Of a DNA stretch of 64,000 nt, positions 7,472 to 56,045 are shown piece after piece. Position 1 is the first letter of the stretch, and every line of letters begins with the position of its first letter. The position numbers and the translations under genes are program-made. Source of the stretch: an uncultured Erwinia sp. (lineage in GTDB: Bacteria > Pseudomonadota > Gammaproteobacteria > Enterobacterales > Enterobacteriaceae); NCBI GenBank assembly GCA_945290265.1, contig CALYQW010000005.1:62001-126000 (forward strand), given 5' to 3'. The notes under the pieces were generated by a model. That model made no database searches. It was not told where the DNA came from and saw only the letters and a program-made list of their open reading frames with translations.

Positions 7472-7969
7472 ATGAATGTAATGACTGCCGCGCAGAAGCT
7501 CGCTGGCGAAACCGAAGGGCAAGAGTTTCTGATTTTTACCCTGGGAGAGGAAGAGTACGGTATTGATATTCTGAAAGTCCAGGAAATCCGTGGCTACGAT
7601 CAGGTAACCCGTATTGCCAACACACCAGATTTTATTAAAGGCGTGACTAATCTGCGCGGAGTAATTGTACCAATAATTGATCTGCGCATTAAATATGCCC
7701 AGGCCGGGGTGGAATATAACGAAAACACCGTGGTCATTGTGCTTAATCTGGAACAGCGCGTAGTGGGTATTGTCGTGGATGGCGTTTCTGATGTGTTATC
7801 TCTGACGCAGGATCAGATCCGTCCGGCACCGGAATTCGCGGTGACGATGTCAACGGAATATATGACCGGACTTGGCGCACTGGGTGAACGCATGTTAATC
7901 CTTGTGGACATTGAAAAGCTGCTGAGTAGTGAAGAAATGGCTCTGGTCGATACCTTACGTAGCTCCTGA
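7472..7969 (+). CDS. cheW: Chemotaxis coupling protein CheW
   Basis: CheW links chemoreceptors to CheA in the polar signalling array. The 165-residue protein is a single CheW beta-barrel domain with [33 protein letters not shown] and [10 protein letters not shown], and is close to the 167 residues of E. coli CheW. AAGG lies about 7 bases before the ATG. It is the last gene of the mot-che operon and is followed by a strong stem-loop. Confidence 0.97.
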
Positions 7970-7990
7970 GGTTTGTCAGTATATAAATTT

Positions 7991-8025
7991 AACCCGCAGG
8001 CAGGCTGACTATTTGCCTGCGGGTT
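7991..8025 (+). terminator. Stem-loop after cheW
   Basis: A perfect 12-bp inverted repeat, AACCCGCAGGCA (7991-8002) and TGCCTGCGGGTT (8014-8025), with an 11-base loop. There is no T-run on the plus strand, so it may be a Rho-assisted terminator or a transcript-end stabiliser between cheW and the first receptor gene. Confidence 0.5.
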
Positions 8026-8177
8026 ACAAGGATCCCTGTCAGAAAATCCTCAGTGCTAATACTGGCGAGCTTCAGGTTTGACTGACAGTTATTTTCAGGA
8101 ATTGAAACTATTGCAGGATGTTTGTCAATCAGGCCTGCATCTGTCCGGATATAGCAGATAACAGTCAAGGAAATAAG

Positions 8178-9824
8178 ATGTTTAAAAACACGAGAGTATT
8201 TACCGGCGTTATGCTGGTGCTGATCATTTTTGGTGCCTTATTATTAGCAATCAGTGGACTTTTTTATAACGCAATTAAAAACGACAAGGATAACTTCTCA
8301 GTTTCTCAGCGTTTACGCGCACAGCAAACGGAAATAAACCAGGCCTGGAATGCATTATCTCAGGCACGTACCGATCTTAACCGGGGCGCGACCTATATTC
8401 TGACCAATGGGAGTGCGCAGACGGTGGCAGAACTGGTTAACCGGGCCCGGCAATCTCTTACCGAAAGCGATAAACATTATGAACGCTGGCTGGCACTGAT
8501 CCCGATATCAGTAGGCGAGGATCAATATGACCGTGAATTACAGAAACGTTTTAAGGAATATAATAACGTTCTGCATACCCTGAGCGACGTTATCAAAAAC
8601 GGTAATGCGAGCGCCTTTATCAACCATCCTACGCAGCAGTATCAGGGCAGCTTTATACATGCGCTGGATGTCTGGAGCAAAGATCAAAATTCTCAGATTG
8701 AAAAACGTGTGGAGGAGAACATTAGTTCTTATAACCATTCTCTGATTATTGTTGGTGCTATGCTGTTGGTGACGCTGATTGTGATTGCAGGCACCTGGAT
8801 GATGATCCGCCGAATTCTTTTACATCCGCTAAGCGAAATCATGTCCTACATTGGATACATTACCAACGGCGATCTGACGCGTGAGCTGAATATCAGCGGT
8901 AAAAATGAAATGGCACAGCTGGCGTCGAGCCTGCGAGAAATGCAGCATGGCCTGGCACGTACCGTCAGTGATGTTCGTGAAGGAACCGATGCCATCTTCA
9001 GCGGTGCCAGTGAAATTGCTGCCGGCAGTAACGATCTTTCAGTGCGCACTGAACAGCAGGCCGCTTCGCTGGAAGAAACCGCCGCCAGTATGGAACAGCT
9101 GACTGCCACGGTGAAACAGAATGCCGAAAATGCCCGTCAGGCGTCATTGCTGGCCAACAACGCTTCTGAGATTGCACAGAAGGGGGGGCTGGTGGTGGAT
9201 GGCGTGGTGCAAACCATGAATGAAATTGCCGGCAGTTCGAAGAAAATCGCTGATATTACCAGCGTTATTGATGGCATTGCCTTTCAGACCAATATTCTGG
9301 CGCTGAATGCGGCGGTGGAAGCAGCGCGTGCCGGTGAGCAGGGCCGTGGCTTTGCTGTGGTGGCTGGTGAAGTGCGCAGTCTGGCACAGCGAAGCGCCCA
9401 GGCGGCGAAAGAGATCAAAGAGCTGATTGAAGACTCTGTGACCCGCGTTGACAGTGGCACCGCGCAGGTGGGCAGTGCCGGCGATACGATGGGTGAAATT
9501 GTCCATGCAGTTACCCGCGTGACCGATATTATGTCGGAAATTGCTTCGGCATCGGACGAGCAGAGCAGGGGAATTAGCCAGGTGGGTACCGCCGTCAGTG
9601 AGATGGATCGCGTTACTCAACAAAATGCCTCGCTGGTGGAAGAGTCTGCCTCTGCGGCGACATCGCTGGAAGAGCAGGCCAGCCGTCTCAGTCTGGCTGT
9701 TTCGGTGTTCCGTATTCGCGGGCAGGATCCTGCTGAGGTGAGTGCTCGTCCTGCGGTGGCGGTTTCGGCGAAGCCGGTGGCAGTCGCATCGAAGCATGAT
9801 GACGATAGTTGGGAGTCGTTTTAA
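8178..9824 (+). CDS. Methyl-accepting chemotaxis protein 1 (Tar/Tsr class, SWESF tail)
   Basis: This inner-membrane chemoreceptor has about 548 residues: TM1 near 7-30, a periplasmic four-helix ligand domain to about 188, TM2 about 190-212, HAMP, and the conserved signalling hairpin ([34 protein letters not shown]). The ligand domain keeps R64, N68, R69 and a PTQ motif but has Tyr, not Arg, at position 73. Its ligand cannot be read from sequence. The C-terminal CheR/CheB tether reads SWESF rather than NWETF. I chose ATG 8178, which has AAGGA about 7 bases upstream and aligns with Tsr and Tar; an upstream in-frame ATG at 8118 would add 20 residues that are not receptor-like. No consensus sigma28 promoter was found directly upstream. 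Confidence 0.9.
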   Translation: MFKNTRVFTGVMLVLIIFGALLLAISGLFYNAIKNDKDNFSVSQRLRAQQTEINQAWNALSQARTDLNRGATYILTNGSAQTVAELVNRARQSLTESDKHYERWLALIPISVGEDQYDRELQKRFKEYNNVLHTLSDVIKNGNASAFINHPTQQYQGSFIHALDVWSKDQNSQIEKRVEENISSYNHSLIIVGAMLLVTLIVIAGTWMMIRRILLHPLSEIMSYIGYITNGDLTRELNISGKNEMAQLASSLREMQHGLARTVSDVREGTDAIFSGASEIAAGSNDLSVRTEQQAASLEETAASMEQLTATVKQNAENARQASLLANNASEIAQKGGLVVDGVVQTMNEIAGSSKKIADITSVIDGIAFQTNILALNAAVEAARAGEQGRGFAVVAGEVRSLAQRSAQAAKEIKELIEDSVTRVDSGTAQVGSAGDTMGEIVHAVTRVTDIMSEIASASDEQSRGISQVGTAVSEMDRVTQQNASLVEESASAATSLEEQASRLSLAVSVFRIRGQDPAEVSARPAVAVSAKPVAVASKHDDDSWESF

Positions 9825-42061: not shown

Positions 42062-42096
42062 CTGACGGCCGTCGGCAAGGCGGCGATGGTTGATGT

Positions 42097-42125
42097 AAGG
42101 CCTGAATTTTTATGCAGGCCTTTTT
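42097..42125 (+). terminator. Terminator after mepM
   Basis: Stem AAGGCCTG / CAGGCCTT with a 10-base loop, followed by TTTTT. Good intrinsic terminator 36 bases after the mepM stop. Confidence 0.75.
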
Positions 42126-42873
42126 ATGTTTTCACTCTCCTTCCTGAATGCTTCTGCCGAACAGGCAGTATCGTCGTATGCCTCAATAACATCAATTTAC
42201 CCCTTTTCGGGTGATGCCCGGCAGAGTGAGTAGGGGACATAGATTATGTCCCTTATTTTATTGTGTCACGTTAGGATGGTTAACAGGTAGTATCACACGC
42301 ATCGCTTTATGTTAAAGCCGTGAGCAGTAACTGTTGCAGTAAAGTCACGATTGCTGAAAACGGCTGGCATGATTTACCGGGCCTCTGCGTATATATCCTG
42401 CCTCAGAAGAGTTTTGCAGACTTTATTTACTTTCAATAACACAATTTAACCTCATGCTGGATTTAGATCTGCGGCAGGTTTTCGTAACAGCTTTAATTTA
42501 TTATAAATTTTCACTTTCTAACGATTAGACCTGCGACAGAAAATATTTTACATAAAATTTAAAAATTAATTTTCGATAAGTTACTTATCATGGCTGATTC
42601 TTTTAAATATATTTCTAAAATCTGACTTACATCTTAATGTGAGTTTTGATTCTTAATTGCTTTAAAATCAATGGCTTGAGTTGTCTTTCTCAGTCAGGTT
42701 ATGGGTTTTATCTATTTTTTTTAGCGTAATTGATCAAAAAAAAATGGTGACTTAAGACTTAATTAGCTTAAATTAAGTGTAGAGGATACAGCATAATTCC
42801 CTTGCGACAAGTATACACGGCTTCGCTGGGTAATTTCGATCCTGGATTAAAGCACAGATTGGTTATTTGCGAT
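42126..42873. other. AT-rich regulatory region before the fimbrial locus
   Basis: About 750 bases without a gene, becoming strongly AT-rich from 42420 on. It carries a perfect inverted repeat CTTAATT (42758-42764) / AATTAAG (42771-42777) and a further CTTAATT at 42652-42658 followed by GCTTTAAA. The motif CTTAATT recurs upstream of the second subunit gene (44326, 44473). These may be sites for the membrane regulator encoded at 49986-50831; this is inference. Confidence 0.45.
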
Positions 42874-43581
42874 ATGGCTTTATTAAAAAAGCAAAAGTCC
42901 TCCATAATCATTTCGTTTGTGTTAATGTATGGCGTGACTTTTACCGCTACCGCTGGTAATTTTGAGGTTCAGGTTAAGGGTACTATCATACCGACAGCCT
43001 GTAGCCCGAATTTATCCAATGGTGGCGTCATTAATTATGGAGCGATCCCTCTTTCACGCCTGTCGGAAACGGATTATACGGTGCTGGATGAAAAGGAAAT
43101 GAATTTTGATATCAACTGCCATGCACCGGTAAGACTGGCATTGAAAGTTATTAACGCTCGCCCGGGGTCGGTAGCGGGTACCAGTGAAACCTACACCGGT
43201 TTTGGTGTATCACCCGTGAAACGTCTTTTTGGCAGAGCCGGGGTGGGTGTTGCCGGACTGGGAATGGTAGGTAATGCCAAAGTGGGTGGCTATGGCATGC
43301 GTATTTATCCTGGCAGTATTACCTCGGATAACGGCACTATACAAGCCATCACCCGTGAAGGTAACCGTCTCTGGCGTAAAGGCGATGCGGGCTCGTTGTT
43401 CAGCACGGATGCTCCACGTATGGATTCCTGGGCCAACCGGCGTTCGCTGATCCCACTGGCCGTGAGCCGGGTGTCCGGTAAACTCAGTGTACAGGCTTAT
43501 ATCAATAAGGCTTCTGAGCTCGATCTTAGTAAGGAAGTTAACATGGATGGTGTGACCACCCTGGAACTTTTCTATCAATAA
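42874..43581 (+). CDS. DUF1120 fimbrial subunit-like protein (first copy)
   Basis: A secreted 235-residue protein with an N-terminal signal (SSIIISFVLMYGVTFTATAG) and the DUF1120 pattern: VQVKGTIIPTACSPNLSNGG, VINYGAIPLSRL, the paired Cys (ACSPN and FDINC), GKLSVQAYINKASELDLSKE and a C-terminal TTLELFYQ strand typical of pilins exchanged by chaperones. DUF1120 proteins occur in E. coli gltF/yhcF-type fimbrial clusters. I chose ATG 42874; it has only a weak ribosome site, and an in-frame TTG at 42802 is possible but less signal-like. About 40% similar by eye to the second copy at 44662. Likely a structural or variant subunit. Confidence 0.75.
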   Translation: MALLKKQKSSIIISFVLMYGVTFTATAGNFEVQVKGTIIPTACSPNLSNGGVINYGAIPLSRLSETDYTVLDEKEMNFDINCHAPVRLALKVINARPGSVAGTSETYTGFGVSPVKRLFGRAGVGVAGLGMVGNAKVGGYGMRIYPGSITSDNGTIQAITREGNRLWRKGDAGSLFSTDAPRMDSWANRRSLIPLAVSRVSGKLSVQAYINKASELDLSKEVNMDGVTTLELFYQ

Positions 43582-44661
43582 CAGATGTAATGCCCGGGGG
43601 CAGGTAAGACCAGTATCCTGTACCTGCAGATATCACGGATGGGAAATCAACCCATCGGATGGGATATATCTGAGCATGCTTATTCTGTTTCCCCAGCATA
43701 CGGCTCGCAATGTACTGGCTTAACAGTAGTCATTAACCTACCTTTATCACGCCTCGGCAGAGTTTAACCTGACGCTAATCAAATATCGCTGCCATGGATG
43801 AGGTGAAATAAGGTGCACATGCGTGTTCATCAGATTCTCCAGGCGTTGCAGCGGGCTTCCAGCGATGCTCCCTTGTGCAAATGACTGTGACGGAATTGGT
43901 CGGGTAATCGATTACGGATCGGCGATCCCTCGGCCAACGTTATACCACTATCACAGAAAATCCTCGGTCTGCCGTATAACGATGACTGAACATCGCCAGC
44001 AGCCAGTATATTGCCGGGTCAACACCTGACCTTGAATACACATCCTTGAAATGCCCGGCACGATCATTCTTCTCTGCACACAGTCAATGCAACCACATCA
44101 GGCACCAGTTTCCGGTGAAAACTTTTGTCTTAGCAGCTGCACTTGTCTGTGCCATTCTGGTAAAAAAAAAGATATGGAAATGCAAGCGAGCTTGCCATTA
44201 AAACTCATCATTACCCGGAATATGACCTGTAAATCTAATATGAACTCGGGCGCTGTATAATCATTTTTTTAACCTGTTAGTCACAATCTTTGTTCTTTCC
44301 TGCCTGGCTAAATTGCTAAATTTGACTTAATTAATGGTGCGTGACCACATTTCCTGTCTGTTTTAACCGCGAAAATGATTTTGGATTAAAGATATAAAAC
44401 CATGATAATCAATAAGATAAATAGAGTATATTGCGTTTAAAGACCAAGAAAATGTCGTTTCTCTAAATACAGCTTAATTGATCTAATAAATCTGGTGTTA
44501 CATTCATCTACATCTCTAATATACAGCCAGCCATCGTACATTCGGTTCATCCTGTTTTAACTGATGGCAGTTTTCCTTGAACAACTTGAACAAGATGATT
44601 CATGGGAAGTAGGTTTGAATTTTTATTTGAATAAATCATAAATAAAAGGGAGTTGTTAGAT
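43582..44661. other. Spacer between subunit genes with decayed DUF1120 remnants
   Basis: About 1.08 kb with no intact gene. A 7-bp stem (GCAGGTA 43600-43606, TACCTGC 43621-43627) follows the first subunit. A frame around 43823-44029 contains CANDCDGIGRVIDYGSAIP, which recalls the DUF1120 Cys-plus-DYGAIP block. Around 44118 a GTG begins a signal-peptide-like segment (MKTFVLAAALVCAILV) that soon loses frame. From 44240 the DNA is AT-rich and holds CTTAATT at 44326 and 44473, the probable promoter region of the second subunit. Confidence 0.5.
43823..44029 (+). pseudogene. Degenerate DUF1120 fragment
   Basis: In this 68-codon frame PCANDCDGIGRVIDYGSAIPRPTL aligns by eye with TACSPNLSNGGVINYGAIPLSRL of the neighbouring subunit, including the Cys and the (I/V)xYGxIP core, but the rest of the domain is lost. 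It suggests that a third subunit gene once stood here and decayed. Alternative: chance similarity of a short stretch. Confidence 0.35.
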
Positions 44662-45363
44662 ATGAACGCAACAAAAAGTATTCTCGCTTTGATTATCCTC
44701 AGTACCTGTGGTGCTATGACCACAGCGCATTCTGCCCCTGTGGACGTTAAAGTTATCGGGACTATTACCCCAGCCTCTTGTCAGGCGCAATTGGATTCCG
44801 CTGGTGTGGTTGACTACGGTATTATTCCTTCTATCACTCTGTCAAAAACGGACTATACGGTACTGAGTGAAAAGCAATTAGGATTCAATATCACCTGTGA
44901 AGCTCCGGCTAAAGTCGCAATTAAAGCGACTAATGGCCGTATGAATACCCTGGCTGGTGCTACCGAGGGACCTGCCGGTTTTGGTAATTCTCCGGTAACC
45001 GGTCTGTTTGGTGATCCGGGTAGCCTCGGGGTTGCGGGTCTGGGATTAGCTGACGGATTCCCTATCGGTGGTTACGCTATGCGTGTTGATCCTGCGTCGG
45101 TCACTGTGGATGGTAAGTCAGCGGATTCCATAGAACGTAATGGTGCCAGCGCATGGACAAAAGCCGCCACAGGTTCAATGTTCAGCATCAGTACTCCGCG
45201 CCAGAACAGTTGGGCTGACAGTGGTACGCTGGCACCCGTTGCCTTTCAGAACTTAACCGGCAAGTTAGGCGTACAGGCGTATATCAATAAAGCGTCTCTA
45301 CTTGATCTGACCCATGATATTCAGCTGGATGGTTTGACCAGTATCGAACTGATTTATCTCTGA
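44662..45363 (+). CDS. DUF1120 fimbrial subunit (second copy, likely major)
   Basis: A 233-residue exported protein: signal peptide (SILALIILSTCGAMTTAHSA), then VDVKVIGTITPASCQAQLDSAG, VVDYGIIPSITLSKTDYTVL, FNITCEAPAKVAIKA, GGYAMRVDPASV, GKLGVQAYINKASLLDLTHD and the C-terminal strand LTSIELIYL. This is a full DUF1120 domain. ATG 44662 has GGGAG 9 bases upstream; an in-frame TTG at 44653 is a poorer choice. It is directly followed by a strong hairpin and then the chaperone gene, the usual order for a major pilin. Role as the shaft subunit is inference. Confidence 0.8.
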   Translation: MNATKSILALIILSTCGAMTTAHSAPVDVKVIGTITPASCQAQLDSAGVVDYGIIPSITLSKTDYTVLSEKQLGFNITCEAPAKVAIKATNGRMNTLAGATEGPAGFGNSPVTGLFGDPGSLGVAGLGLADGFPIGGYAMRVDPASVTVDGKSADSIERNGASAWTKAATGSMFSISTPRQNSWADSGTLAPVAFQNLTGKLGVQAYINKASLLDLTHDIQLDGLTSIELIYL

Positions 45364-45418
45364 TTGATTTGTCAATTCGCTGAAAAGTAACGGGCACACA
45401 AGTTCTGCCACGCCTAAC

Positions 45419-45444
45419 AAGGTCAGGCATTTATGCCTGACCTT
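45419..45444 (+). terminator. Hairpin between subunit and chaperone genes
   Basis: A perfect 11-bp stem (AAGGTCAGGCA / TGCCTGACCTT) with a 4-base loop ends 10 bases before the chaperone ATG. Only three T residues follow, so partial termination or mRNA protection is likely. In several fimbrial operons such a hairpin keeps subunit mRNA more abundant than chaperone-usher mRNA. Confidence 0.6.
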
Positions 45445-45454
45445 TGAGTGAGAC

Positions 45455-46159
45455 ATGGATATGTTGTTGAAATTTATATTGCGATTCACCGTGCTTGGAG
45501 GGTTGTTAGCGGCTTCTGCGGCTAATGCAACCGGAATCCTCCCCGAAACATCGGTGGTTATCGTGGAAGAGGCTGATGGTGAGGGATCCATTAACCTAAA
45601 AAACACGGACAGTTACCCGGTACTGTTGCTCACCACCATACTGGATATTCGCGACGATCATGCCAGCCTGCTAACCGCTACTCCACCGGCAGCAAGAGTT
45701 GAACCGGGAAAAGTGCAGAGTGTACGTTTCCTGCTGACAGATAAAACGCCGTTGAAAACCGAACGTTTAAAGCGTGTCACCTTTGAAGGTATTCCCCCTC
45801 AGAAACAAGGCCAAAATGAAGTCCGCATGATGATTCGCCAGAACCTGCCTGTGCTTATTCGTCCTGCAGGTTTGGCACGTGATGCTCAACCCTGGAAACG
45901 CCTGGTATGGCGTAAAACGGGTCAGGCATTACAGGTTTCCAACCCGTCAGCCTATGTTGTCAGGCTGTCCCAGCAGGTGGTGGGTCAGCCTGGCAATCAA
46001 AGCTGGACGCTACCGGAAGCCTATATCCTGCCCGATCAGACGATAACCCTGAGTTCTCAGTCGGCGCAGTCAGTGGCAACGCTAACTAAGGTGACGCTCT
46101 CTCCGGCGACCACCTGGGGTTACACAGTTAATGAATATACTGCGGACATTACCAATTAG
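45455..46159 (+). CDS. Periplasmic fimbrial chaperone (PapD-like, YhcA type)
   Basis: The chaperone caps pilin subunits in the periplasm by donor-strand complementation and brings them to the usher. The 234 residues have a signal peptide (LRFTVLGGLLAASAANA) and two Ig-like domains: GSINLKNTDSYPVLLLTTI, RVEPGKVQSVRFLL (the edge-strand region), NEVRMMIRQNLPVLIRPAGL, and a C-terminal domain with NPSAYVVRLSQQVV. ATG 45455 and ATG 45461 are both possible starts; GAGTGAGAC precedes them. The usher begins two bases after its stop. Confidence 0.9.
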   Translation: MDMLLKFILRFTVLGGLLAASAANATGILPETSVVIVEEADGEGSINLKNTDSYPVLLLTTILDIRDDHASLLTATPPAARVEPGKVQSVRFLLTDKTPLKTERLKRVTFEGIPPQKQGQNEVRMMIRQNLPVLIRPAGLARDAQPWKRLVWRKTGQALQVSNPSAYVVRLSQQVVGQPGNQSWTLPEAYILPDQTITLSSQSAQSVATLTKVTLSPATTWGYTVNEYTADITN

Positions 46160-46161
46160 TT

Positions 46162-48567
46162 ATGCTGTTGAAGCGAAATTACCGGGTATTGCGATCGTTT
46201 GCCGTATTCAGTGTCCACAGCTGGCTGCTCCTGGCGCTCTGCGCTGCAGGCCGTGTCTGTGCTGACGGGCACGTTGAATTTGATCAGCAGATGTTGCAAT
46301 CGCTGGGCGTGGATAAAAAGGTGGCCTCAACTTTCAGCGAGGCGCCGCGCTTTATGGCAGGTGAAACCAGCGTAGCGCTATACGTCAATGGGGTTAACCG
46401 AGGCCGTGCAGAAGTGAAGTTTAATGATAACGGACAACTCTGCGTGACAGCGGATTTTTTGTCTCAGGCCGGACTGATAACTCCCGACGGCTTTGATGCC
46501 CGGACTGACTGTTCGCTGTCTGGCGCATTCTGGCCGCAGGCTGAAATCACGCCCGCGCCTGACCAAAATCGGCTTGATCTGGTGCTTCCGCAAAAATTTC
46601 TGCTGCCGGAAAACGATCCGGCGGCAGATTACTGGACACATGGTGGAAGGGCTGGGTTGATAAATTACGTTGCTCAGTATATGACCTCGTATGGTCGAGG
46701 CATATCTACCGATTTTATCCAACTTGGCAGCGAAGCCGGATTTAACCTCTCTGACTGGATAGTGCGTAGCCGCCAGCAGTTGTCGCGGATGAACGACGAG
46801 GCTCGTTTTGACAGCCAGGGAATATGGGCGCAGCGCAGCTGGAGCAGGATACGTAAGGTGATGCAACTCGGGCAAATAAACATGAGTAATGCCGGACGGG
46901 TGCTGGGAGTACAATTTACCCCTGAGGACGCGTTGCTGATCCGAGACCACAGCCCGGCATTGGTTGAAGGAATAGCGGACAGCCAGTCGGTGGTGGAAAT
47001 ACGCCAGGCGAATGTGCTGCTTTACAGCACCACGGTGCCTGCCGGTCCTTACAGTTTGAGCCATTTTCGCATGCTCAATACCCGAACGGATCTGGTAGTC
47101 AAAGTCACCAATAGCGAAGGCACAGAGCGGGAATTTGTCGTACCGGCATCAACCTTTCTGCAGAGGAATCTGACTGCTCCGGAACTGGCATTTGGCCTTG
47201 GTCGTACCGACCAGCAGGGGAGCGGTGTAAAACCGATGGTGGCGATGCTGGAAGGGGGATATGCACTGGGCGAATTATCGCTGATAAGCGGTTCATTGCT
47301 GGTTTCCTCACCGTACAGCATGCTTGAAACTAACTTCACCAGCCAACTTTTTCGTCCCTGGACGTTCAGACAGTACAGCACCTTCAGTCACGATAGTGAG
47401 CACCATACTCAGGGCATACAAAGCGGAGCAGAGGTAAGCTGGACAGCCACTGAACGGCTGACTTTGGGCGCAGAACTGCGGATACAGAGTACCGGTTATC
47501 GTGAGTTTTATGATGCGTTGCAGCGGCAGCCGCTCGAAACCCCAGGGATGAGTCGCAACCAGCTGGGATTGAGCGTTGGTTGGGATGCGCGCAGTGTTGG
47601 TAATCTGTCTCTTTCGGCGGGGCGCAGTAGCTACTGGGGAGGAAGCCACGCCGATTACGTGCGCGCTGGCTGGACTAAAGCATTTAACGGTGTGCTGATC
47701 TCTGCCAGCCTGGCGCGTAATACCCGCCCGGACGGCAGTGGGGGAGAAAATCTATTCTATCTGACCCTAAGTATGCCTTTGAGCAAAGGGAATATCAGTA
47801 GTTATATTAATAGCGGTGCTGGACAGGATCGTGTTGGAACCCGCTGGAGCCAGCGTTACAGCCAGGATCGCGGGTACAGTCTGTCGGGAGAGCGGAATCT
47901 GCGTAGCGATCAGAACAGTATCAGCGCCACCGGTGATATGGTTACCTCGCTTAGTCAGCTATCAGCAGGGGTCAGTGCAGGCAACAAACGCTCAACCACC
48001 TTGAATGCCAGAGCCAGTGGAGCAATTGTGGCACATGCGGGAGGGGTTACCCTGTCACCTTATCAGGTGGGAGATACCTTCGGCATTGCCCGGGTTGGCA
48101 ATGAAAGTGGTGTCCGGCTGCAGACCCCTTCCGGCCCGACATGGACGGACTGGCGTGGTTATGCAGTGGTGCCCGGATTAAAAGGATTTAAAAAAGCGGT
48201 GGTACAAATCGATGGCCGCAGCCTCGATAAAAGCATTGATATTGCCAATAGCTGGCAACAGGCTATGGCGGCGCGTGGTTCTGTTACCCGTATCGATTTT
48301 ATGGTAGTTCATAATCGCAGAGTGCTGGTGGGGTTAAAGGATCTCCAGAGTAATCCGATCGCCCGGGGTGCCAGCGTGTTTAACGAGCAGGGAGAGTTTG
48401 TCACGATAACCGGCGAACGCGGACAGACATTTATCCCGGATGCGGACGGAAAAAATCATTATGAAGTTCAGGTATCCGGCAGGACGTTGTGCCGCTTTAG
48501 TTTGCAGTTACCGGAAAAAGCCCCGAGCGGGGAACTGTATGAAACCGCTGACAGTGTGTGTCATTGA
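46162..48567 (+). CDS. Outer-membrane fimbrial usher
   Basis: The usher is the outer-membrane channel and assembly platform of chaperone-usher fimbriae. The 801-residue protein has a signal peptide (about 1-35), an N-terminal chaperone-binding domain with VEFDQQMLQSLG, the beta-barrel with plug (VEIRQANVLLYSTTVPAGPYSL, LRIQSTGYREFYDALQRQP), and C-terminal domains with a Cys pair (RTLCRFSLQL, DSVCH). It is somewhat shorter than the 830-870 of many ushers but all parts are visible. Most similar in style to YhcD-type ushers. Co-transcribed with the chaperone. Confidence 0.9.
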   Translation: MLLKRNYRVLRSFAVFSVHSWLLLALCAAGRVCADGHVEFDQQMLQSLGVDKKVASTFSEAPRFMAGETSVALYVNGVNRGRAEVKFNDNGQLCVTADFLSQAGLITPDGFDARTDCSLSGAFWPQAEITPAPDQNRLDLVLPQKFLLPENDPAADYWTHGGRAGLINYVAQYMTSYGRGISTDFIQLGSEAGFNLSDWIVRSRQQLSRMNDEARFDSQGIWAQRSWSRIRKVMQLGQINMSNAGRVLGVQFTPEDALLIRDHSPALVEGIADSQSVVEIRQANVLLYSTTVPAGPYSLSHFRMLNTRTDLVVKVTNSEGTEREFVVPASTFLQRNLTAPELAFGLGRTDQQGSGVKPMVAMLEGGYALGELSLISGSLLVSSPYSMLETNFTSQLFRPWTFRQYSTFSHDSEHHTQGIQSGAEVSWTATERLTLGAELRIQSTGYREFYDALQRQPLETPGMSRNQLGLSVGWDARSVGNLSLSAGRSSYWGGSHADYVRAGWTKAFNGVLISASLARNTRPDGSGGENLFYLTLSMPLSKGNISSYINSGAGQDRVGTRWSQRYSQDRGYSLSGERNLRSDQNSISATGDMVTSLSQLSAGVSAGNKRSTTLNARASGAIVAHAGGVTLSPYQVGDTFGIARVGNESGVRLQTPSGPTWTDWRGYAVVPGLKGFKKAVVQIDGRSLDKSIDIANSWQQAMAARGSVTRIDFMVVHNRRVLVGLKDLQSNPIARGASVFNEQGEFVTITGERGQTFIPDADGKNHYEVQVSGRTLCRFSLQLPEKAPSGELYETADSVCH

Positions 48568-48888
48568 GCAGATTAATTAATGCAGCGTCAAAAAGCACTC
48601 AATATATTTAATCAGAGTAGGGTGCTACAGGCGGCATTATAACGCTCAGCCTTGGCGTGTTATTTAAAACCGGTTGTTCTTCTGGTTGATTAACTTTTTT
48701 GCCGTTAACCATAACGCTGGACGGTATGGCAATCATCAAACTGGTCTATTTCTGACCCGGCATTCACCCGCCTGGATGCCCAATAATCGGGTTAATCGGG
48801 GGGAGCTTTTACACTAAGGTCAGGAAGTCTTGACCTTATCCGGCCCGTCACCGGATCTCTGTAACGGACGACAGGAACAAACAACGTG
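48568..48888. other. Spacer between usher and minor subunit gene
   Basis: About 320 bases with no recognisable gene. The length suggests a lost or internal regulatory segment. AGGAA (48873-48877) is the ribosome site of the next gene. Confidence 0.4.
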
Positions 48889-49464
48889 ATGAAACCAATG
48901 CTATCGATCGCTTTGCTGTCAGCAGCGTTAACCGCCGGCGCGACAGAACCGGTTAACGGTAATGTAGCGGTTATGGAATCTGCTGGTGAGTGTGTTATCC
49001 ATGTGGCGCGTGAAGAAATAGAGTATGGCGTGATGACCAACTGGCAGCTGCAGAAAACCGATAAACCGGGGGTGCTGACGCCGGGTGAACGCACCGTCCC
49101 GGTTACCGTGACCTGTGCCCACAGTCAGCCCTTTAATCTGCGTCTGTCAGGTGAACGTAATGCACGCGGTCAACTGCGTTATGGCCGTTATGGCTGGATG
49201 CGGGTGCAAATCACCAATCTGCATCTGGACGGTAAGTCGGTGAGTTTTGCGTTACGTGGGGGGCAGGGCGACAACCGACAGCTGGTTTTCGGTTCGGCTG
49301 TGCTGCATGAGGACAGTATAATTACCCCCTGGATGGATGGTCATGCTGCCAGGGGGCGAACCATGGCCTTTGAAATAGTGCTGGAGCCGCGTGTTGCCGA
49401 AGGTAACAGCTCCGTGAGTGCACCGGATGTGAGTGAAGGAAGTATACGCCTGACTCTGGAGTGA
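48889..49464 (+). CDS. Fimbrial minor subunit/tip candidate
   Basis: A 191-residue exported protein with a short signal peptide (MLSIALLSAALTAGA). A Cys pair frames the pattern GECVIHVAREEIEYGVMTNWQLQ ... VPVTVTCAHSQPFNLRLSG, as in the first half of pilin-like DUF1120 domains, and the C-terminus SVSAPDVSEGSIRLTLE could be a donor strand. GTG 48886 is immediately followed in frame by ATG 48889, and AGGAA fits either. Lying after the usher, it may be a tip adhesin or anchor; no lectin-type domain is obvious. Could also be an unrelated periplasmic protein. Confidence 0.6.
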   Translation: MKPMLSIALLSAALTAGATEPVNGNVAVMESAGECVIHVAREEIEYGVMTNWQLQKTDKPGVLTPGERTVPVTVTCAHSQPFNLRLSGERNARGQLRYGRYGWMRVQITNLHLDGKSVSFALRGGQGDNRQLVFGSAVLHEDSIITPWMDGHAARGRTMAFEIVLEPRVAEGNSSVSAPDVSEGSIRLTLE

Positions 49465-49485
49465 GAAAAATCACCCTGATTGCGT

Positions 49486-49989
49486 TCAGTCATACTGGCA
49501 ATAGAATATCGGGAAATTGTCTTTGATGAAGAAGATCCCATCTTTGATGGTACGGATGCTAAACCAGGCGCTGTCTTCCACAGGATTGAAGAACACCGGC
49601 AGGATATTGCTGACGGTTTGATTGATTTCAGCATGATCACTCAGATTATCCTTGCTAAACTTTGTGATCTTCACATGTTTAAACAGAGAAACAGAGTCAT
49701 CGCTTTCAAATTCAAATTCGATGCGTCGATTGACCGAGGCGGTATAAACCTCTTTTTCATACACCGGGCCGGTTAACATCACAGTTCCCTGATTATCTTT
49801 TACTCTGATGCCGGCAATCAGCGGGATACTGAGTTCGGGAGTTTCAAGGCGGAATGCTGCCTGACACTGATAGTTTTTTCGCGGTAAGTTCTCATAGCTG
49901 GCGGACCAGTGATGATCGATATGAACTACCACGGCGAAATAAAGGATTAACATAATGATATTAGCCAGATCGATAATCCTGTTTTTCAT
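49486..49989 (-). CDS. PsaF/ToxS-like membrane accessory protein
   Basis: A 167-residue protein with one N-terminal membrane helix (IIDLANIIMLILYFAVVVHID) and a periplasmic domain with two cysteines, C42 (NYQCQAAF) and C164 (FYCQYD). Size, topology, and position directly after a membrane-bound winged-helix regulator resemble PsaF, MyfF, YqeJ and ToxS-type partners that stabilise or sense for the regulator. Sequence alone does not prove the family. It overlaps the regulator stop by ATGA and ends 22 bases from the convergent minor-subunit gene. Confidence 0.65.
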   Translation of the reverse strand: MKNRIIDLANIIMLILYFAVVVHIDHHWSASYENLPRKNYQCQAAFRLETPELSIPLIAGIRVKDNQGTVMLTGPVYEKEVYTASVNRRIEFEFESDDSVSLFKHVKITKFSKDNLSDHAEINQTVSNILPVFFNPVEDSAWFSIRTIKDGIFFIKDNFPIFYCQYD

Positions 49990-50831
49990 TTATCCCCCTG
50001 TGAAAAATATTCCGATATGCAGGAAAGACTATTATTTTTTTCTGCGGAGCAATACATTGCAGAACTGGTAATGATACTCTCGAAAAGCGTGATATAGGTA
50101 TTGTCATAGCTTTTACAGACCGATGCTTCCTTACGCAGAAAGCGGTTGCGGATATCTATCTGACCGGCATTGTTATTAACATAAAGGGCACAATGCTTAT
50201 CATTTTTTTTATACAGAACATAATTACGGAAAAGCGGTGAAGTTGACAACACTGTTGGATCGCGCTGATAGCTATATTTGATAAAAATACCGGAAAGTAA
50301 AAATGCAAATAACCACACCGGTAACCAGATTTTTTTAACGTTTTTTGGATCGCTCGTAAGCGAGACGGTCTGAACCCGGCTGATCCTGACGGATGGAGAA
50401 TATCTTTCCGTGCTTAACCTGCTGCTTTCCTCTGATGGGGTTAATGGCGATGCCACCACTGAAGTCACGTTGATACCCGCAGGAATAGTCAGACCGACCC
50501 GCTTGGTGGTAATGATAATATCTCTGCCGGGCAGGAATTCAGCCAGTGCCTTACGTAATATGGAGATATTCTGATAAAAAGTGTTGGGAGACACCACCAG
50601 TCCCTGGGCACCCCAGGCAAATGCCATTATCTCGCGTTGTGGGACCAGTTCCCCCTGGCGCTGTAGCAATATCTCCAGGCAACGAGCAGCGGCGGTGAAT
50701 AAAGAGGTTTCACGTTCATCAGTGCGCGAACGTAACAAATGACTGTCAGGATGAAATTCCAGTTCGTTACAAATTAAATAAATCTTTTGCAACTCATTGT
50801 CATTGCTAATTATTATTCCATTATCAAACAT
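49986..50831 (-). CDS. Membrane-anchored winged-helix regulator (ToxR/PsaE/CadC type)
   Basis: A 281-residue transcription regulator. The N-terminal OmpR-type winged helix (about 15-105) includes EFHPDSHLL, RCLEILLQRQGELVPQREIM, FYQNISILRKALAEF and IITTKRVGLTIP. A Ser-rich linker leads to one membrane helix (IWLPVWLFAFLLSGIFIKYSY, about 168-188). The periplasmic domain has four cysteines (HCALY, VCKSY, YCSAE, LSCIS), possible disulfides. This layout is that of ToxR, CadC and PsaE. I chose ATG 50831; an in-frame TTG at 50843 adds four residues. Its position beside a fimbrial operon makes local control likely, as psaEF does for psaABC. Target and signal are inferred. Confidence 0.78.
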   Translation of the reverse strand: MFDNGIIISNDNELQKIYLICNELEFHPDSHLLRSRTDERETSLFTAAARCLEILLQRQGELVPQREIMAFAWGAQGLVVSPNTFYQNISILRKALAEFLPGRDIIITTKRVGLTIPAGINVTSVVASPLTPSEESSRLSTERYSPSVRISRVQTVSLTSDPKNVKKIWLPVWLFAFLLSGIFIKYSYQRDPTVLSTSPLFRNYVLYKKNDKHCALYVNNNAGQIDIRNRFLRKEASVCKSYDNTYITLFESIITSSAMYCSAEKNNSLSCISEYFSQGDK

Positions 50832-51263
50832 AATATCTATCAAAATTCCATGTCAATGACAAATAGCCGGTAATATTTAGAAAGATTCAAGTCTTTACCG
50901 GTTAAATACTACCTTGTCCGAGTAAATGTGCGTGTTAATAGATAAATGCAATTTTAAATATCGCCTTAACCGCAATACATTATAATCTCAATAATATATT
51001 CATCAACATTATTAGAGTATTCCCGGCGCAATTAATTAACATAAGTGCACATGATGGCGCCACACAATTTTCGCTGCCGCCTCTCACCGTTCGTTATGTG
51101 CTGTTCTTTTATCCATTGCGCTACGCACCAGCCCGGATCGTCCTGGTTAGCGCGGCGGCGGGGCGCTACTGGCACACTGGCCGCTGACGATGCCGGATGA
51201 CTAAACCATTGCAAAATTGTCTGTCACCACTATCATTAGCCGGTGATTGTCAGAGGCGAGTGC
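50832..51263. other. Divergent promoter region between regulator and lpxM
   Basis: About 430 bases, AT-rich next to the regulator and more balanced before lpxM. It marks the right edge of the fimbrial island. No direct repeats or integrase were found at the edges. Confidence 0.45.
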
Positions 51264-52235
51264 ATGGAAAACAGTAAAAAAAGTCACGCAGAGTTCATTC
51301 CTGCGTTTAAAGCGTCATTTCTACATCCTCGTTACTGGGGCAACTGGCTGGCGATAGGCTGTTTTGCCTTACTGGCTCTGGTGCCGGTGACAGTACGCGA
51401 TCCTCTGCTGGCACGGTTAGGTAAGCAAGTAGGCAGGCTGGCGAAAAGTGCCCGCCGGCGCGCACAGATCAATCTGTTCTACTGTCTGCCGCAGTTAAGT
51501 GATCAGCAGCGAGAAGAGATTATCGACAGGATGTTCGCCACCGCCCCTCAGGCGATGGTCATGATGGCTGAGCTGGCGCTACGCCCTAAGCGTGCGCTAA
51601 AACGTGTCCACTGGCATGGACGTGAGCAAATTGATCAGCTGGCAGAACGCGGAGAAAATGTGATTTTTCTGGTGCCGCACGGCTGGGCGGTGGATATCCC
51701 GGCGATGGTGCTGGCCTCCCAGGGGCAGAAGATGGCGGCGATGTTTCATAATCAGCGTAATCCGGTGATGGACTATATCTGGAATGCGGTACGCCGTCGT
51801 TTTGGTGGCCGGATGCATGCCCGTAATGATGGGATTAAACCTTTTATCAGTTCGGTGCGTCAGGGTTACTGGGGGTACTACCTTCCTGACCAGGATCATG
51901 GTGCTGAGCACAGTGAATTCGTTGACTTTTTTGCCACCTACAAAGCGACCTTACCGGCGCTTGGCCGTCTGATGAAAATATCTCGGGCAAAAGTGGTGCC
52001 ACTGTTTCCGGTGTATGACAGTAAAACCCACAGCCTGGACATCTGGCTGCGTCCGTCGATGGACGACCTGGCGGAAGCGGATGATGTGACGCTGGCGCGC
52101 CGTATGAATGAAGAAGTCGAGATCCTGGTCGGGCCGAACCCGGAACAGTACACCTGGATCCTGAAGCTGTTAAAAACCCGCAAACCGGGGGATATTGAAC
52201 CTTACCAGCGTGACGATCTCTACCCGAAAAAATAG
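51264..52235 (+). CDS. lpxM: Lipid A myristoyltransferase LpxM
   Basis: LpxM (MsbB) adds the last acyl chain to Kdo2-lipid A at the inner membrane. The 323 residues have an N-terminal membrane anchor ([17 protein letters not shown]) and the catalytic HX4D motif in [14 protein letters not shown], with [14 protein letters not shown] and [20 protein letters not shown] 51264 gives [13 protein letters not shown] in line with E. coli; a GTG at 51243 would add seven residues. In E. coli it follows mepM and precedes pykA; both neighbours are displaced here. Confidence 0.94.
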
Positions 52236-52357: not shown

Positions 52358-53587
52358 TTACACCTTCACCACCTGTGAACGCCGCCGCCACTCACGTAAA
52401 AACGCCATCAGCAACAGCCACCAGACTATCCCACAGGCCAGGTTAACCACGCTAAAACCACGCGTACCGTCGCTGAAATAACTGTACTTCGCCAGCTCGA
52501 TCCCCAGGGCAAACACCAGAATACTCACCATGCCCAGCATCGCCGCCACGCTACCTTTACCCGCATCGCTGGAAAACAGCGTCAGCCGATAAAGCCCGGC
52601 ATTCACCAGCCCGGTACCGAAGCCATAAATGCTTAACCCGGCGGTCAGCCACAAATAATTGTGCTTATCCAGCAGGGTAGCCACACAGGCGATAATCAGC
52701 CCCAGCAATACCGGCCACATGCCGAGGCGTATTGGACGATCCACCGGCACACGGGTTGCCAGCTTACCCAGCGTCAGGTTACCGACAATCATGGCGATAA
52801 ATACCGGCAGCTGCAGCAGGGCGTAATCGAGACGGCTCATCCCGGCTTCATGAATCAGGATCACCGGTGACAGCGCTACCCAGGCAAGACAGGGGATGGT
52901 CACCAGGCCAATTGCGATGGAGCCGGCCAACACCTGACGGTTACGCAGCAGCGCCAGATAGCCGCCGGCCAGTGACTTCAGGGACAGCGAAACCTGGCTA
53001 TCGCCGGCGGTTTCCGGCATGGTGCGCCATAATCCCAACAGGGCCAGGGCGCTGACGCCACCAAACAACAGAAACATGGTACGCCAGCCGCCGATCTCAA
53101 GAAACGCGGCACCGGCCAGCGGTCCGGCCAGCGGTGCCAGCAGGGCCACATTGGCCATCAGTGCCATAATTCGCACGCTGCGCGCTTCGTCAAAGGCTTC
53201 CTGGATCGCGGCATAGCCCACGGCCCCGATAAAGCACAGGCTGGTGCCCTGTAAAAACCGCAGCAGAACAAACTGTTCAATGCTGGCAATCCAGTTGGTA
53301 GCGAGACAGGTCAGAATAAAAAAGGTTACGCCACCCAGTAGCACCGGACGGCGGCCAATCTTATCGGACAGCGGACCCAGCAGCCATTGCAGCACCATTC
53401 CCCCCATCAGATAGGCGGTCAGGGAAGCGGATACCCATTCCGGCCCAACGTTAAATTCTTGGGTGACCATCAGCATACCCGGCTGGATCATGTCATGGGC
53501 GATGTAGGTAGCAAATTCAAACAGAACCAGCGACAGCGGAAAAATATACGACCGCCTGCCGCCAGCTCCCGGAGTTAATGACGCCAT
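52358..53587 (-). CDS. dfoS: MFS exporter, MdfA-like, DfoS candidate
   Basis: A 409-residue major facilitator with about 12 membrane helices. It is strongly MdfA-like: LFEFATYIAHDMIQPGMLMV with the two acidic residues E24 and D32 of the multidrug pocket, LQWLLGPLSDKIGRRPVLLGG (motif A) and RFLQGTSLCFIGAVGYAAIQ. It lies downstream of dfoJAC on the same strand, the place of the permease dfoS in Pantoea dfoJACS clusters, so siderophore export is the favoured role. A terminator separates it from dfoC. The alternative is a general drug exporter (mdfA/cmr). Confidence 0.75.
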   Translation of the reverse strand: MASLTPGAGGRRSYIFPLSLVLFEFATYIAHDMIQPGMLMVTQEFNVGPEWVSASLTAYLMGGMVLQWLLGPLSDKIGRRPVLLGGVTFFILTCLATNWIASIEQFVLLRFLQGTSLCFIGAVGYAAIQEAFDEARSVRIMALMANVALLAPLAGPLAGAAFLEIGGWRTMFLLFGGVSALALLGLWRTMPETAGDSQVSLSLKSLAGGYLALLRNRQVLAGSIAIGLVTIPCLAWVALSPVILIHEAGMSRLDYALLQLPVFIAMIVGNLTLGKLATRVPVDRPIRLGMWPVLLGLIIACVATLLDKHNYLWLTAGLSIYGFGTGLVNAGLYRLTLFSSDAGKGSVAAMLGMVSILVFALGIELAKYSYFSDGTRGFSVVNLACGIVWWLLLMAFLREWRRRSQVVKV

Positions 53588-53636
53588 TGAGGCTCCTTCC
53601 AGTGATCCCCACGTTCAGTCTCTGCCAGCGGGGAGA

Positions 53637-53671
53637 AAAATAAAAAGCGCAGCCGCGATGGCGACTGCGCT
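53637..53671 (-). terminator. Terminator between dfoC and the exporter
   Basis: On the minus strand AGCGCAG and CTGCGCT pair over 7 bp with an inner CGC/GCG extension across one mismatch, followed by TTTTTATTTTT. It should stop or reduce dfoJAC transcription before dfoS. Confidence 0.7.
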
Positions 53672-53693
53672 GAGTGCTGCATTATAGAACGAA

Positions 53694-56045
53694 TTAGCGG
53701 TAAGCTGCGATAGGGTTAATCAGGGTTCCTGCAAACTTGAGGTTTTCTGCCGGATCGGCCAGATTGATCATCTGCTGGTTGTTCGCCAGCTGCAGTCGGT
53801 TCAGACAGGAGAGTTCAAACTCGTGACCGAACAGATCGTAACGGGCAAACTTCTCTGCCAGCTGCGGATGCGCGCGCTGATAGTCATGCACGCAGGCGGC
53901 AACTGCCTGCCAGAAGTCGGCCTGCTTCAGGGTGCCGGACTCATCCAGAATGGCACTGATAAAGCGGAAAATGCAGTCAAACACATCGGTGAAAATGGAC
54001 AGCAGCTTCAGCTGTTCCGGCACATCCACCGCCAGTCTTTCGACCTTCTCCGGCAGCACCGCATCCGGGTTCATTACCGCGATCTCTTCGCCGATATCCT
54101 TCATATAGGCTGCCACCGGCACGTTATTTTCCAACAGCATAATCAGGTTTTCACCATGTGGCATAAACACCAGATCGTGCTGATAGAAGCAGTGCAGCAG
54201 CGGGCTGAGGTAACAGCGCAGATAGCGGGCAACCCACTCGACGGCCGGGAGACCGGAGGCAGCAATCACTGCCGGTAACAGTCCCTGCTGCTGCGGATCG
54301 ATATGCAGGAAAGAAGCCATGGTCATCAGGCGCTGATTGGGCTGCAGATCGGCCATCGGGTTGTCACGCCACAGCGCGGCAAACATCTTTTTATAGGCGG
54401 AATCACCGCTGATAGCCTGCTCGAAATAGTGATTATGATACCCGATCGCCGCCACTTCGCGCAGAATTCGGAAGTTGCACTGCTGCAGCCAGCTGTCTTT
54501 TTCCACCAGACGCTGCAGCCACTGATTAATTGCCGGCGTGGTGGCCATATAGTAAGGCGACAGCCCGCGCATAAAGCCCATATTCAGTACCGACAGCGCG
54601 GTTTTGACATAGCGTTTGGTCGGCTGACTGCGGTTAAAGAAGGTGCGGATCGACTGCTGTGCCTGGTAGACATCATCACCGTTGCCCAGCCAGATAATAT
54701 TATGGCTGGCAATATCGGCAGCAAACACCGTCAGCAGTTTGTTATACCACTGCCACGGATGCACTGGCATAAACAGATAATCTTCACGCTTAACCCCGGC
54801 CTTATCCAGCTGCTGATTAAAGTGGGCTACGGTGTCATCGCCCAGCTCATCGCGCATCAGCTGCTGATAGTTAAGCTCATCAATACTGGAGAAGTGCGCA
54901 TTGCGCAGATGCACCGCGACCCACACCAGGTTGATCGGTGCCGCCGCTTCCGGCGCATAGGCCAGATAATCGCGGGCATCAAAGCCAATACGTCCGTTGT
55001 TGGCCACAAAGCAGGGATGGCCTTCAGTCATGGCCGCTTCAATGGTCTGGAAATCGGCACGTACCAGGTCGGCACTGTTACTGGCATTTTTTTGTAGCTT
55101 AAACACGCTGCTGCACAGCGTGCTGCTAATCTCTTCCATATAGGTTGCCAGCATATTGGCCGGGATACCGATCTGCTGGCTGAACTCGACGATAAACTGC
55201 ATCGCATCCAGCGCCAGCGGGTTGCCATTCTCGTGTTTGCTCAGCGAAGCGGCATCCACGGCCCAGTGATCCAGCGCCAGGCGGCGGGCACGGAAATGAT
55301 ATTCTGCCTCGCCGCCGGGTACGCTCAGGGCATAACGGTCTTCACCCAGTTCACGCGGGGTGATAATGCGTTCATGAGCAAATTCCGCAATGGCTTTGCG
55401 GATCAGCAGACGGTTGGCCTGCGCCCAGTTATCGCCAGTCAGATGACGGCCTTTAAGTTGTTCAGAAGTCGAGCTCATGGTTAACCTATCCTGTTTCAGG
55501 GCCTGTTGATAATCTTCGCGCTGGCAGAACGCCAGCCAGGCGATTTTGTGTCCCAGATCGATCTGGTGCTGGTACTGAAAGCCGGCGCGCTTGTTTAACA
55601 GGTGAATTTTACTGTTGCGGGCATCCGGCTCTACCACCACCCGCTGTACCTCAGGCAGGCTGAAAAGGTAGTCCATTACCAGGGTAAAGACCTGCCAGCT
55701 GAACTGACGCATTGGCCGGGTGGCCGGTGCAATCAGAATATGCATGCCGCAGTCACCTTCTGCTGCGGGATAAAATTTACCGATCTCCTCGTCCGCCGGG
55801 CGATAGCGCTCCACTAAAAACACCGGTTCGCCATCACAGCAGCCAATCAGCGCGCTCTGCGCATCGTGCTGCTGCAGCTGCTGATAAAACTGCGCTACCT
55901 GCTCCAGACTGTCGTTCTGCATGCCCCAGAAACGGGCATAATCCTGGGTGACCCAGCGGTGGATCAGCGCATCGTCCGCCCGCGTCATCGGGCGTAAAGT
56001 AAACAGACCGCTCGCGCGTTCGGCCTGAAAAAGCGGTTGTGTCAT
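53694..56045 (-). CDS. dfoC: Desferrioxamine synthetase DfoC (acyltransferase-NIS synthetase fusion)
   Basis: DfoC acylates N-hydroxycadaverine with succinyl-CoA and then joins and cyclises the units with ATP to give desferrioxamine E. The 783 residues are a fusion: an N-terminal GNAT-type acyltransferase (about 1-180, HILIAPATRPMRQFSWQVFT) and an IucA/IucC-family NRPS-independent synthetase (about 190-783, GHPCFVANNGRIGFDARDY, FMPVHPWQW, SLTPYYM-type GLSPYYMATTPAI, MPHGENLIMLLENNVP). An internal Met near residue 188 marks the domain boundary. It starts one base after the dfoA stop. Confidence 0.93.
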   Translation of the reverse strand: MTQPLFQAERASGLFTLRPMTRADDALIHRWVTQDYARFWGMQNDSLEQVAQFYQQLQQHDAQSALIGCCDGEPVFLVERYRPADEEIGKFYPAAEGDCGMHILIAPATRPMRQFSWQVFTLVMDYLFSLPEVQRVVVEPDARNSKIHLLNKRAGFQYQHQIDLGHKIAWLAFCQREDYQQALKQDRLTMSSTSEQLKGRHLTGDNWAQANRLLIRKAIAEFAHERIITPRELGEDRYALSVPGGEAEYHFRARRLALDHWAVDAASLSKHENGNPLALDAMQFIVEFSQQIGIPANMLATYMEEISSTLCSSVFKLQKNASNSADLVRADFQTIEAAMTEGHPCFVANNGRIGFDARDYLAYAPEAAAPINLVWVAVHLRNAHFSSIDELNYQQLMRDELGDDTVAHFNQQLDKAGVKREDYLFMPVHPWQWYNKLLTVFAADIASHNIIWLGNGDDVYQAQQSIRTFFNRSQPTKRYVKTALSVLNMGFMRGLSPYYMATTPAINQWLQRLVEKDSWLQQCNFRILREVAAIGYHNHYFEQAISGDSAYKKMFAALWRDNPMADLQPNQRLMTMASFLHIDPQQQGLLPAVIAASGLPAVEWVARYLRCYLSPLLHCFYQHDLVFMPHGENLIMLLENNVPVAAYMKDIGEEIAVMNPDAVLPEKVERLAVDVPEQLKLLSIFTDVFDCIFRFISAILDESGTLKQADFWQAVAACVHDYQRAHPQLAEKFARYDLFGHEFELSCLNRLQLANNQQMINLADPAENLKFAGTLINPIAAYR

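Follow-up and report, generated by a model that had tools for sequence, protein, structure and literature searches.

A beta-clade fimbrial island between mepM and lpxM of an uncultured Erwinia, with an adjoining co-component pair and a candidate operator

The window analysed here is a 64,000-nucleotide stretch of an uncultured Erwinia sp., a plant-associated bacterium (assembly GCA_945290265.1, contig CALYQW010000005.1, positions 62,001 to 126,000), and our subject is an island of seven open genes lying in it between mepM, which ends at 42,061, and lpxM, whose ATG is at 51,264. Two DUF1120 genes (a and b), a chaperone, an usher and a minor subunit gene follow one another on the plus strand, and a two-gene membrane regulator, labelled REG and PART, lies convergently on the other strand. 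A preliminary description made from the letters alone had listed the same seven genes in this order, and this was confirmed, with every frame open. The families, the gene order, the insertion and a 20-bp element presented below were established by sequence comparison and structure prediction. The island and its genes are as follows (window positions; ORF, open reading frame).

42063..51206, no strand: complete insert, lying between mepM and the promoter region of lpxM; ends placed by pairwise alignment to within a few bases
42874..43581, plus strand: DUF1120 gene a, taken as pilin gene; ATG start, ORF also opens at TTG 42,802; Pfam DUF1120 4.5e-15
44662..45363, plus strand: DUF1120 gene b, taken as pilin gene; ATG start, ORF also opens at TTG 44,653; Pfam DUF1120 2.2e-15
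45455..46159, plus strand: periplasmic PapD-type chaperone; PapD_N 8.7e-24; NF007392 / PRK09918 306 bits, cut-off 183
46162..48567, plus strand: outer-membrane usher; Pfam Usher 1e-69; PRK15304 546.7 bits, under the cut-off of 723; placed by usher tree
48889..49464, plus strand: minor subunit of the YhcE family; 191 aa from ATG, ORF also opens at GTG 48,886
49486..49989, minus strand: PART; one membrane helix and a periplasmic lipocalin-like domain (ToxS/VtrC/FidL kind)
49986..50831, minus strand: REG; ToxR-like winged helix, membrane helix and a periplasmic domain that has four conserved cysteines; TTG 50,843 as a further ORF start

REG and PART overlap by 4 bp (49,986-49,989).

The site of insertion was defined by comparison with 36 congeneric relatives, 7 of which yielded no mepM-lpxM locus. 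The junction was empty in all 29 loci examined, with a gap of about 130-190 bp and once of 625 bp; mepM and lpxM are neighbours there, as the preliminary description says of E. coli. Because homology to the relatives ended at about the mepM stop codon and restarted at about 51,207, the insert was taken to span approximately 42,063-51,206. A promoter-like site of lpxM (51,209-51,236) was left in place, and 51,207-51,263 is the lpxM leader. Scans predicted 17 promoters and 11 terminators, where shuffled sequences gave 13.5 and 9.1 on average, and nothing was used from them except this promoter-like position. A tRNA search of the window found none, no integrase or transposase was recognised by eye among the island ORFs (no dedicated search was made), and the inverted repeats in the island were imperfect, distant pairs that offered no candidate for a fim-type invertible switch.

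The DUF1120, PapD, usher and Trans_reg_C calls of the preliminary description held in Pfam searches at the values listed above, with 2.2e-7 for Trans_reg_C in REG, and neither the minor subunit nor PART gave a significant Pfam match. The best NCBIfam matches of the DUF1120 proteins and the usher were PRK15302 and PRK15304, both below their curated cut-offs; we take these profiles to derive from the stj locus, PRK15304 being the stj usher. The chaperone profile PRK09918 presumably stands for YhcA, which would make the chaperone YhcA-type. The minor subunit reached 43 bits with PRK15301 (cut-off 226) and 0.056 with SCPU. Since its family profile matched fragment 1 of K-12 yhcE at 6.9e-22, the additional gene that had been described as subunit-like encodes an intact YhcE homologue.

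Then, 26 DUF1120 loci were compared, namely 24 around related ushers, the window and K-12 yhc; one of them (L115 in our numbering of loci) ends at a contig edge. DUF1120 genes, one to four in number, recurred with chaperone and usher across the loci (DUF1120 in 26/26), and a YhcE-type gene was present in 25 of the 26, missing only from L138. In a quick usher tree, whose outside rows were only two ushers of adjacent other operons, a 100% branch had all 26 rows, K-12 YhcD included, on one side. A scan of the named genomes with the usher gave no matches. By this comparison the island fimbria is assigned to the beta clade of chaperone-usher fimbriae (Yhc/Stj kind) as a further member, and the claim that its DUF1120 subunits set it apart from named fimbriae had to be given up.

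Pilins end in alternating hydrophobic residues with a penultimate tyrosine. The DUF1120 C-termini likewise alternate hydrophobic residues, and their penultimate tyrosine was invariant in 21/21 aligned sequences. A model of the gene b product was of low confidence (predicted local distance difference test score, pLDDT, of 51, built from 3 sequences); searched with Foldseek, it gave chaperone-usher pilus entries for all of its best 16 Protein Data Bank (PDB) matches, at E values of 0.03-0.43. Neither the DUF1120 nor the YhcE-type sequence profile matched the PDB significantly, FimG standing at 0.19 behind a xylanase at 0.17 for DUF1120. We take DUF1120 to be the pilin of the beta clade and not a stand-in for an ordinary pilin. 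A two-domain tip adhesin is not encoded in the island, whose largest subunit product, counted from the ATG, has 235 aa; the remaining long ORFs are the chaperone, the usher, the regulator pair and frames overlapping genes.

Yhc of E. coli (gltF-yhcA-yhcD-yhcE-yhcF, beta clade) resembles the island in its DUF1120 subunits, YhcA chaperone, usher and YhcE-family protein and in having no tip subunit, whereas the island has two DUF1120 genes before the chaperone, an intact YhcE-type gene in last position and an attached co-component pair. The likeness to Stj of Salmonella (usher StjB) runs through the profiles PRK15302 and PRK15304 only, the usher reaching 546.7 of 723 bits. The passages cited place Yhc (PMC5216030) and Stj (PMC3373541, PMC9238391) in the beta clade, describe a tip or typical adhesin as lacking (PMC5216030, PMC3373541, PMC9238391) and give Stj as the sole beta-fimbria of Salmonella subsp. 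enterica (PMC9238391, PMC3373541). According to the same portion of PMC5216030, deletion of yhc left the adherence of a strain of enterotoxigenic E. coli to Caco-2 cells unchanged.

The pair beside the fimbria was analysed in the same way. REG and PART are a co-component cassette (VtrA/VtrC superfamily) of the YqeI/YqeJ-FidL kind, belonging to the cysteine-bearing FidL/YqeJ branch; the co-component system is described, in the part of the paper we draw on, by Kinch and colleagues (PMC9214523). The REG profile matched Vibrio cholerae ToxR in the PDB at 3.7e-19 and CadC at 9.4e-6, its membrane helix shows as a hydropathy peak of 1.75 at residues 168-186 (Kyte-Doolittle), and Cys214, 239, 261 and 271 are each at least 90% conserved in 14 aligned rows. 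The REG family profile matched K-12 YqeI at 5.3e-68 and also YgeH at 2e-12, and the PART family profile matched K-12 YqeJ at 3.6e-36; this test used five K-12 proteins obtained after the profiles had been built, with Z set to 4300, and near relatives of YqeI/YqeJ are, by eye, probably among the profile members. In the PART model (pLDDT 87) a single helix precedes a domain made up of eight strands and a helix, and Foldseek ranks 1-5 were chains of ToxS (3.2e-4) and VtrC (1.2e-3). Sequence search with PART matched no solved structure. Cys42 and Cys164 of PART were invariant in alignments of 22 and 36 rows. These matches agree with the earlier reading of the two genes as a ToxR/PsaE-like membrane regulator. 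Pfam FidL_like speaks against kinship with the FidL/YqeJ branch, since it matched 1 of 22 PART-family members (E 0.005) and not the PART of the window. With an iterated PART profile, a partner was seen in 41/60 REG loci with short flanks and in 62 of the 80 from named genomes, these being the best 80 of 126; a strict adjacency rule gave 56/80.

Like REG and PART, the YqeI/YqeJ, GrvA/FidL and MarT/FidL pairs consist of a ToxR-like domain, membrane helix and periplasmic cysteines with an adjacent partner of lipocalin-like fold and two conserved cysteines, as far as the cited portion of PMC9214523 describes them. They differ in their targets or company there, namely the MisL autotransporter for MarT/FidL, adherence dependent on the locus of enterocyte effacement for GrvA and the remnant of E. 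coli type III secretion system 2 for YqeI/YqeJ, whereas REG/PART adjoins a beta-fimbria. PsaE/PsaF and MyfE/MyfF of Yersinia are also two-gene membrane regulators of a chaperone-usher adhesin, likened here by description; in the sections cited, PsaF is a pH sensor that stabilises PsaE (PMC8407435, PMC9820224, PMC10269533), and Psa is a single-subunit fibre (PMC9820224), unlike the island with its two DUF1120 pilins and minor subunit.

An orthologous island was found in Erwinia piriflorinigrans at another site, and mepM and lpxM are adjacent in that genome (L158). Since the E. piriflorinigrans island sits elsewhere, the fimbria and the pair moved together. In that island REG and PART lie on the operon strand, and an insertion-sequence (IS)-like ORF, recognised by eye at 7689-8897 of its locus L099, stands between the fimbria and the pair. 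Identity to the window was 65% for the chaperone, 59% for the usher, 46% for REG and 41% for PART.

The preliminary description had proposed a self-contained module, and here the picture was divided. REG with PART occurred in 3 of the 26 DUF1120 loci, namely the window, E. piriflorinigrans (L099 = L170) and L108, and K-12 yhc has no co-component pair annotated in the 15 kb read around it. The pair is thus lacking in most of the homologous fimbrial loci, which the preliminary description had named as a finding against its module. In the nearest orthologue it does stay with the fimbria. What stood was the tie of the regulator family to chaperone-usher genes. Such genes were present in the fetched flanks of 64 of the 80 named REG loci, so that unrelated neighbours, which would have told against the module, are mostly not what was seen. 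Of the 70 loci with full flanks (8 kb or more on each side), 59 had chaperone or usher genes nearby, compared with 0/40 for 20-kb control stretches, which were cut at fixed coordinates out of 20 genomes, each with a REG match at 1e-10. The link was kept in 31 of 41 full-flank clusters when REG was clustered at 60% identity and in 18 of 22 at 50%. Three of the 11 full-flank loci that lack chaperone-usher genes are near other adhesin systems, a CS1-type usher in L207 and autotransporters in L226 and L231; six of the 11 were checked by Pfam on large proteins picked by eye.

Several observations weigh against the pair as the regulator of this fimbria. REG/PART is missing from 23/26 DUF1120 loci within the fetched flanks, and the partner from 19/60 short-flank and 18/80 named REG loci; many of the partner-less loci carry a short REG. 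The REG of L108 is unrelated, and a quick REG tree, with long branches, rejected one clade for the three regulators (approximately unbiased test, p-AU 0.006). The convergent position at the 3' end is shared by few relatives: relative to the fimbrial neighbour, the pair was divergent in 37 of 64 relatives, on the same strand downstream in 17, convergent in 8 and otherwise placed in 2. On the usher tree, presence of the pair needs two changes, a count that 32 of 500 label shuffles matched or beat. Taken together, the two trees suggest that DUF1120 loci acquired unrelated pairs on two occasions, in both cases at the operon's 3' end. Judged by its company, the REG family is an adhesin regulator, and the pair is not a general part of the DUF1120 module.

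The pair could also be a passenger, a roaming sensor cassette controlling genes elsewhere and brought next to the fimbria by shared insertion hot spots. This would fit the 23 DUF1120 loci without a pair, the IS-like ORF that parts pair from operon in E. piriflorinigrans, and the closest REG/PART outside the two Erwinia genomes (L120, G060:C13), which sits amid autotransporter genes, as MarT/FidL sits by MisL. However, the 59/70 against 0/40 is hard to fit with it, as is the joint presence of orthologous pair and fimbria at 41-65% identity despite the different island site, and outside the two genomes that carry this pair no zero-mismatch copy of the 20-bp element was found, as far as searched. 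We consider the passenger explanation improbable.

Other regulators were seen in the course of this comparison. Upstream of the DUF1120 genes in L106, L107, L108 and L111 there are small winged-helix proteins (125-131 aa) with no evident membrane helix, which would be another kind of local regulator, and L118 has a ToxR-like gene with no partner. The source genome holds a second REG/PART pair (G000:C13, L134 9385-10807), its REG 37% identical over query residues 18-132; that pair had no chaperone-usher match in 20 kb, and its distance to a gene for an invasin-type inverse autotransporter is about 6.5 kb. A Chryseobacterium record (L246) has REG/PART with chaperone-usher genes and is possibly an enterobacterial contaminant in the assembly.

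The 20-bp element, AGCKTAATTGATCWAAWAAA, precedes both DUF1120 genes of the window and the E. piriflorinigrans orthologue, and it had not figured in the preliminary description. Its copies in the window are:

42723..42742, plus strand: 20-bp element AGCGTAATTGATCAAAAAAA; first base 151 bp ahead of the DUF1120 a ATG; candidate operator
44471..44490, plus strand: 20-bp element AGCTTAATTGATCTAATAAA; first base 191 bp ahead of the DUF1120 b ATG; candidate operator

A repeat search showed that the two DUF1120 genes are each preceded by a copy of a 27-nt direct repeat (81% identity). The 13-nt core AGCKTAATTGATC, defined on the window pair, has no other exact copy in the window, and the 20.9 kb searched of E. 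piriflorinigrans contain a single perfect match, 290 bp in front of the DUF1120 gene; the remaining upstream regions show little conservation (alignment, by eye). The 20-mer matches perfectly at the three genes, and each of 46 other DUF1120 genes (score above 150 bits) shows 6 mismatches or more; upstream of 215 other ORFs there was one site with 2 mismatches, the rest having at least 5. Across both whole genomes, matches with 0-1 mismatch were at the three sites only. E. piriflorinigrans has two DUF1120 fimbrial loci (L099 = L170; L100), and the 20-mer is only at the one that bears REG/PART. We regard the 20-mer as the best candidate for the operator of REG, and as likely to be it.

A number of points count against this assignment. 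The three sites themselves supplied the K and W letters in the 20-mer, which stands at three different distances from the start codons. The REG promoters lack it (5 and 7 mismatches), as does L108, which has its own pair (at least 6 mismatches). Two-mismatch sites numbered three in 3.8 Mb of loci, including one elsewhere in the E. piriflorinigrans genome; such a site also lies in L107, about 4.9 kb from the first DUF1120 gene, and in one control stretch. The 20-mer might instead be the site of another regulator or part of the core promoter, kept by descent, with REG acting elsewhere or on another sequence. Its AT-richness, the varying distance to the genes and its absence from the REG promoters and from L108 with the unrelated pair would all suit that, but neither genome has a further site with 0-1 mismatch, unlike what is expected for a global regulator, and the pair-less DUF1120 locus of E. 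piriflorinigrans lacks the 20-mer. We hold this alternative to be rather unlikely.

The state of the genes was considered next to a small remnant, also absent from the preliminary description:

48708..48749, plus strand: DUF1120 C-terminal relic of 14 residues, between usher and minor subunit; 26.5 bits

The largest null score in 300 control stretches was 20.8 bits. The relic would be what is left of a third DUF1120 gene, and the pilin array has probably shrunk, because the relic sits where L101 and L136 have a DUF1120 gene between usher and minor subunit. A third decayed copy, suspected by eye in 43,582-44,640, was rejected: with three queries, its frameshift-tolerant scores of 37, 41 and 47 were equalled or exceeded by 97, 53 and 11 of 240 control stretches, and its best profile piece reached 17.0 bits against a null median of 16.5. 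It might be that the island as a whole is decaying, in a genome of small size (3.44 Mb), and that its fibre is no longer made; the relic, the usher-minor subunit gap of 318 bp against about 10 bp in many relatives and the 1-kb gap between the DUF1120 genes point that way. Yet all seven reading frames are open in both the window and E. piriflorinigrans, with a strong codon-position bias. Codon identity between the two was 34-40% at third and 63-80% at second positions, and because third positions diverge more than second and inner stops are absent, the seven proteins look constrained. Decay of the island is thus, in our judgement, very improbable.

Downstream of lpxM, the window has on the minus strand (52358-56045) an apparent major facilitator superfamily transporter and a 783-aa protein that looks DfoC-like, with an acyltransferase and an NIS siderophore synthetase joined in one chain.

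Taken as a whole, our preferred reading is that a horizontally moved beta-clade fimbria is switched on by REG/PART through the 20-mer, and we think this fairly probable. Under this reading, the chaperone would carry the two DUF1120 pilins and the YhcE-type minor subunit through the periplasm and the usher would export them, giving a fibre that would be thin and without a two-domain tip adhesin. The lipocalin-like domain of PART would pair with the cysteine-bearing periplasmic domain of REG, and together they may sense a periplasmic cue, by analogy a lipid, a bile-like compound or pH, with PART protecting or activating REG. The cytoplasmic ToxR-like domain of REG would then bind the 20-mer upstream of each DUF1120 gene, and the operon would be switched on. 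Sensing, the pairing of REG with PART, binding of the 20-mer and the direction of control are what we infer from sequence and from related systems.

In 2012 the beta-fimbriae were, in the passage cited, a clade without structural or functional information (PMC3373541). The co-component paper names, in the part cited, adhesins (pH 6 antigen, MisL) as targets of single pairs, and its main text contains neither "fimbria" nor "usher" (PMC9214523). In the open-licence literature searched, DUF1120 was not found together with "fimbrial", no general link of the YqeI/FidL branch to chaperone-usher loci was found stated in the portions covered, and a beta-fimbria with an attached co-component sensor is a variant that we did not find described. 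Tentatively, and with somewhat more doubt than belief, we suggest that the YqeI/FidL-type family is mainly a swappable sensor cassette of adhesin operons with private operators, the 20-mer having been duplicated so that there is one per pilin gene. If this is true, the family would serve above all chaperone-usher fimbriae, and each DUF1120 pilin gene here would answer to the sensor. Given a candidate switch and a candidate operator without further copies in the genome, the control of a beta-fimbria would be directly testable, and a co-component branch that stands beside chaperone-usher loci would predict the targets of dozens of sensor pairs.

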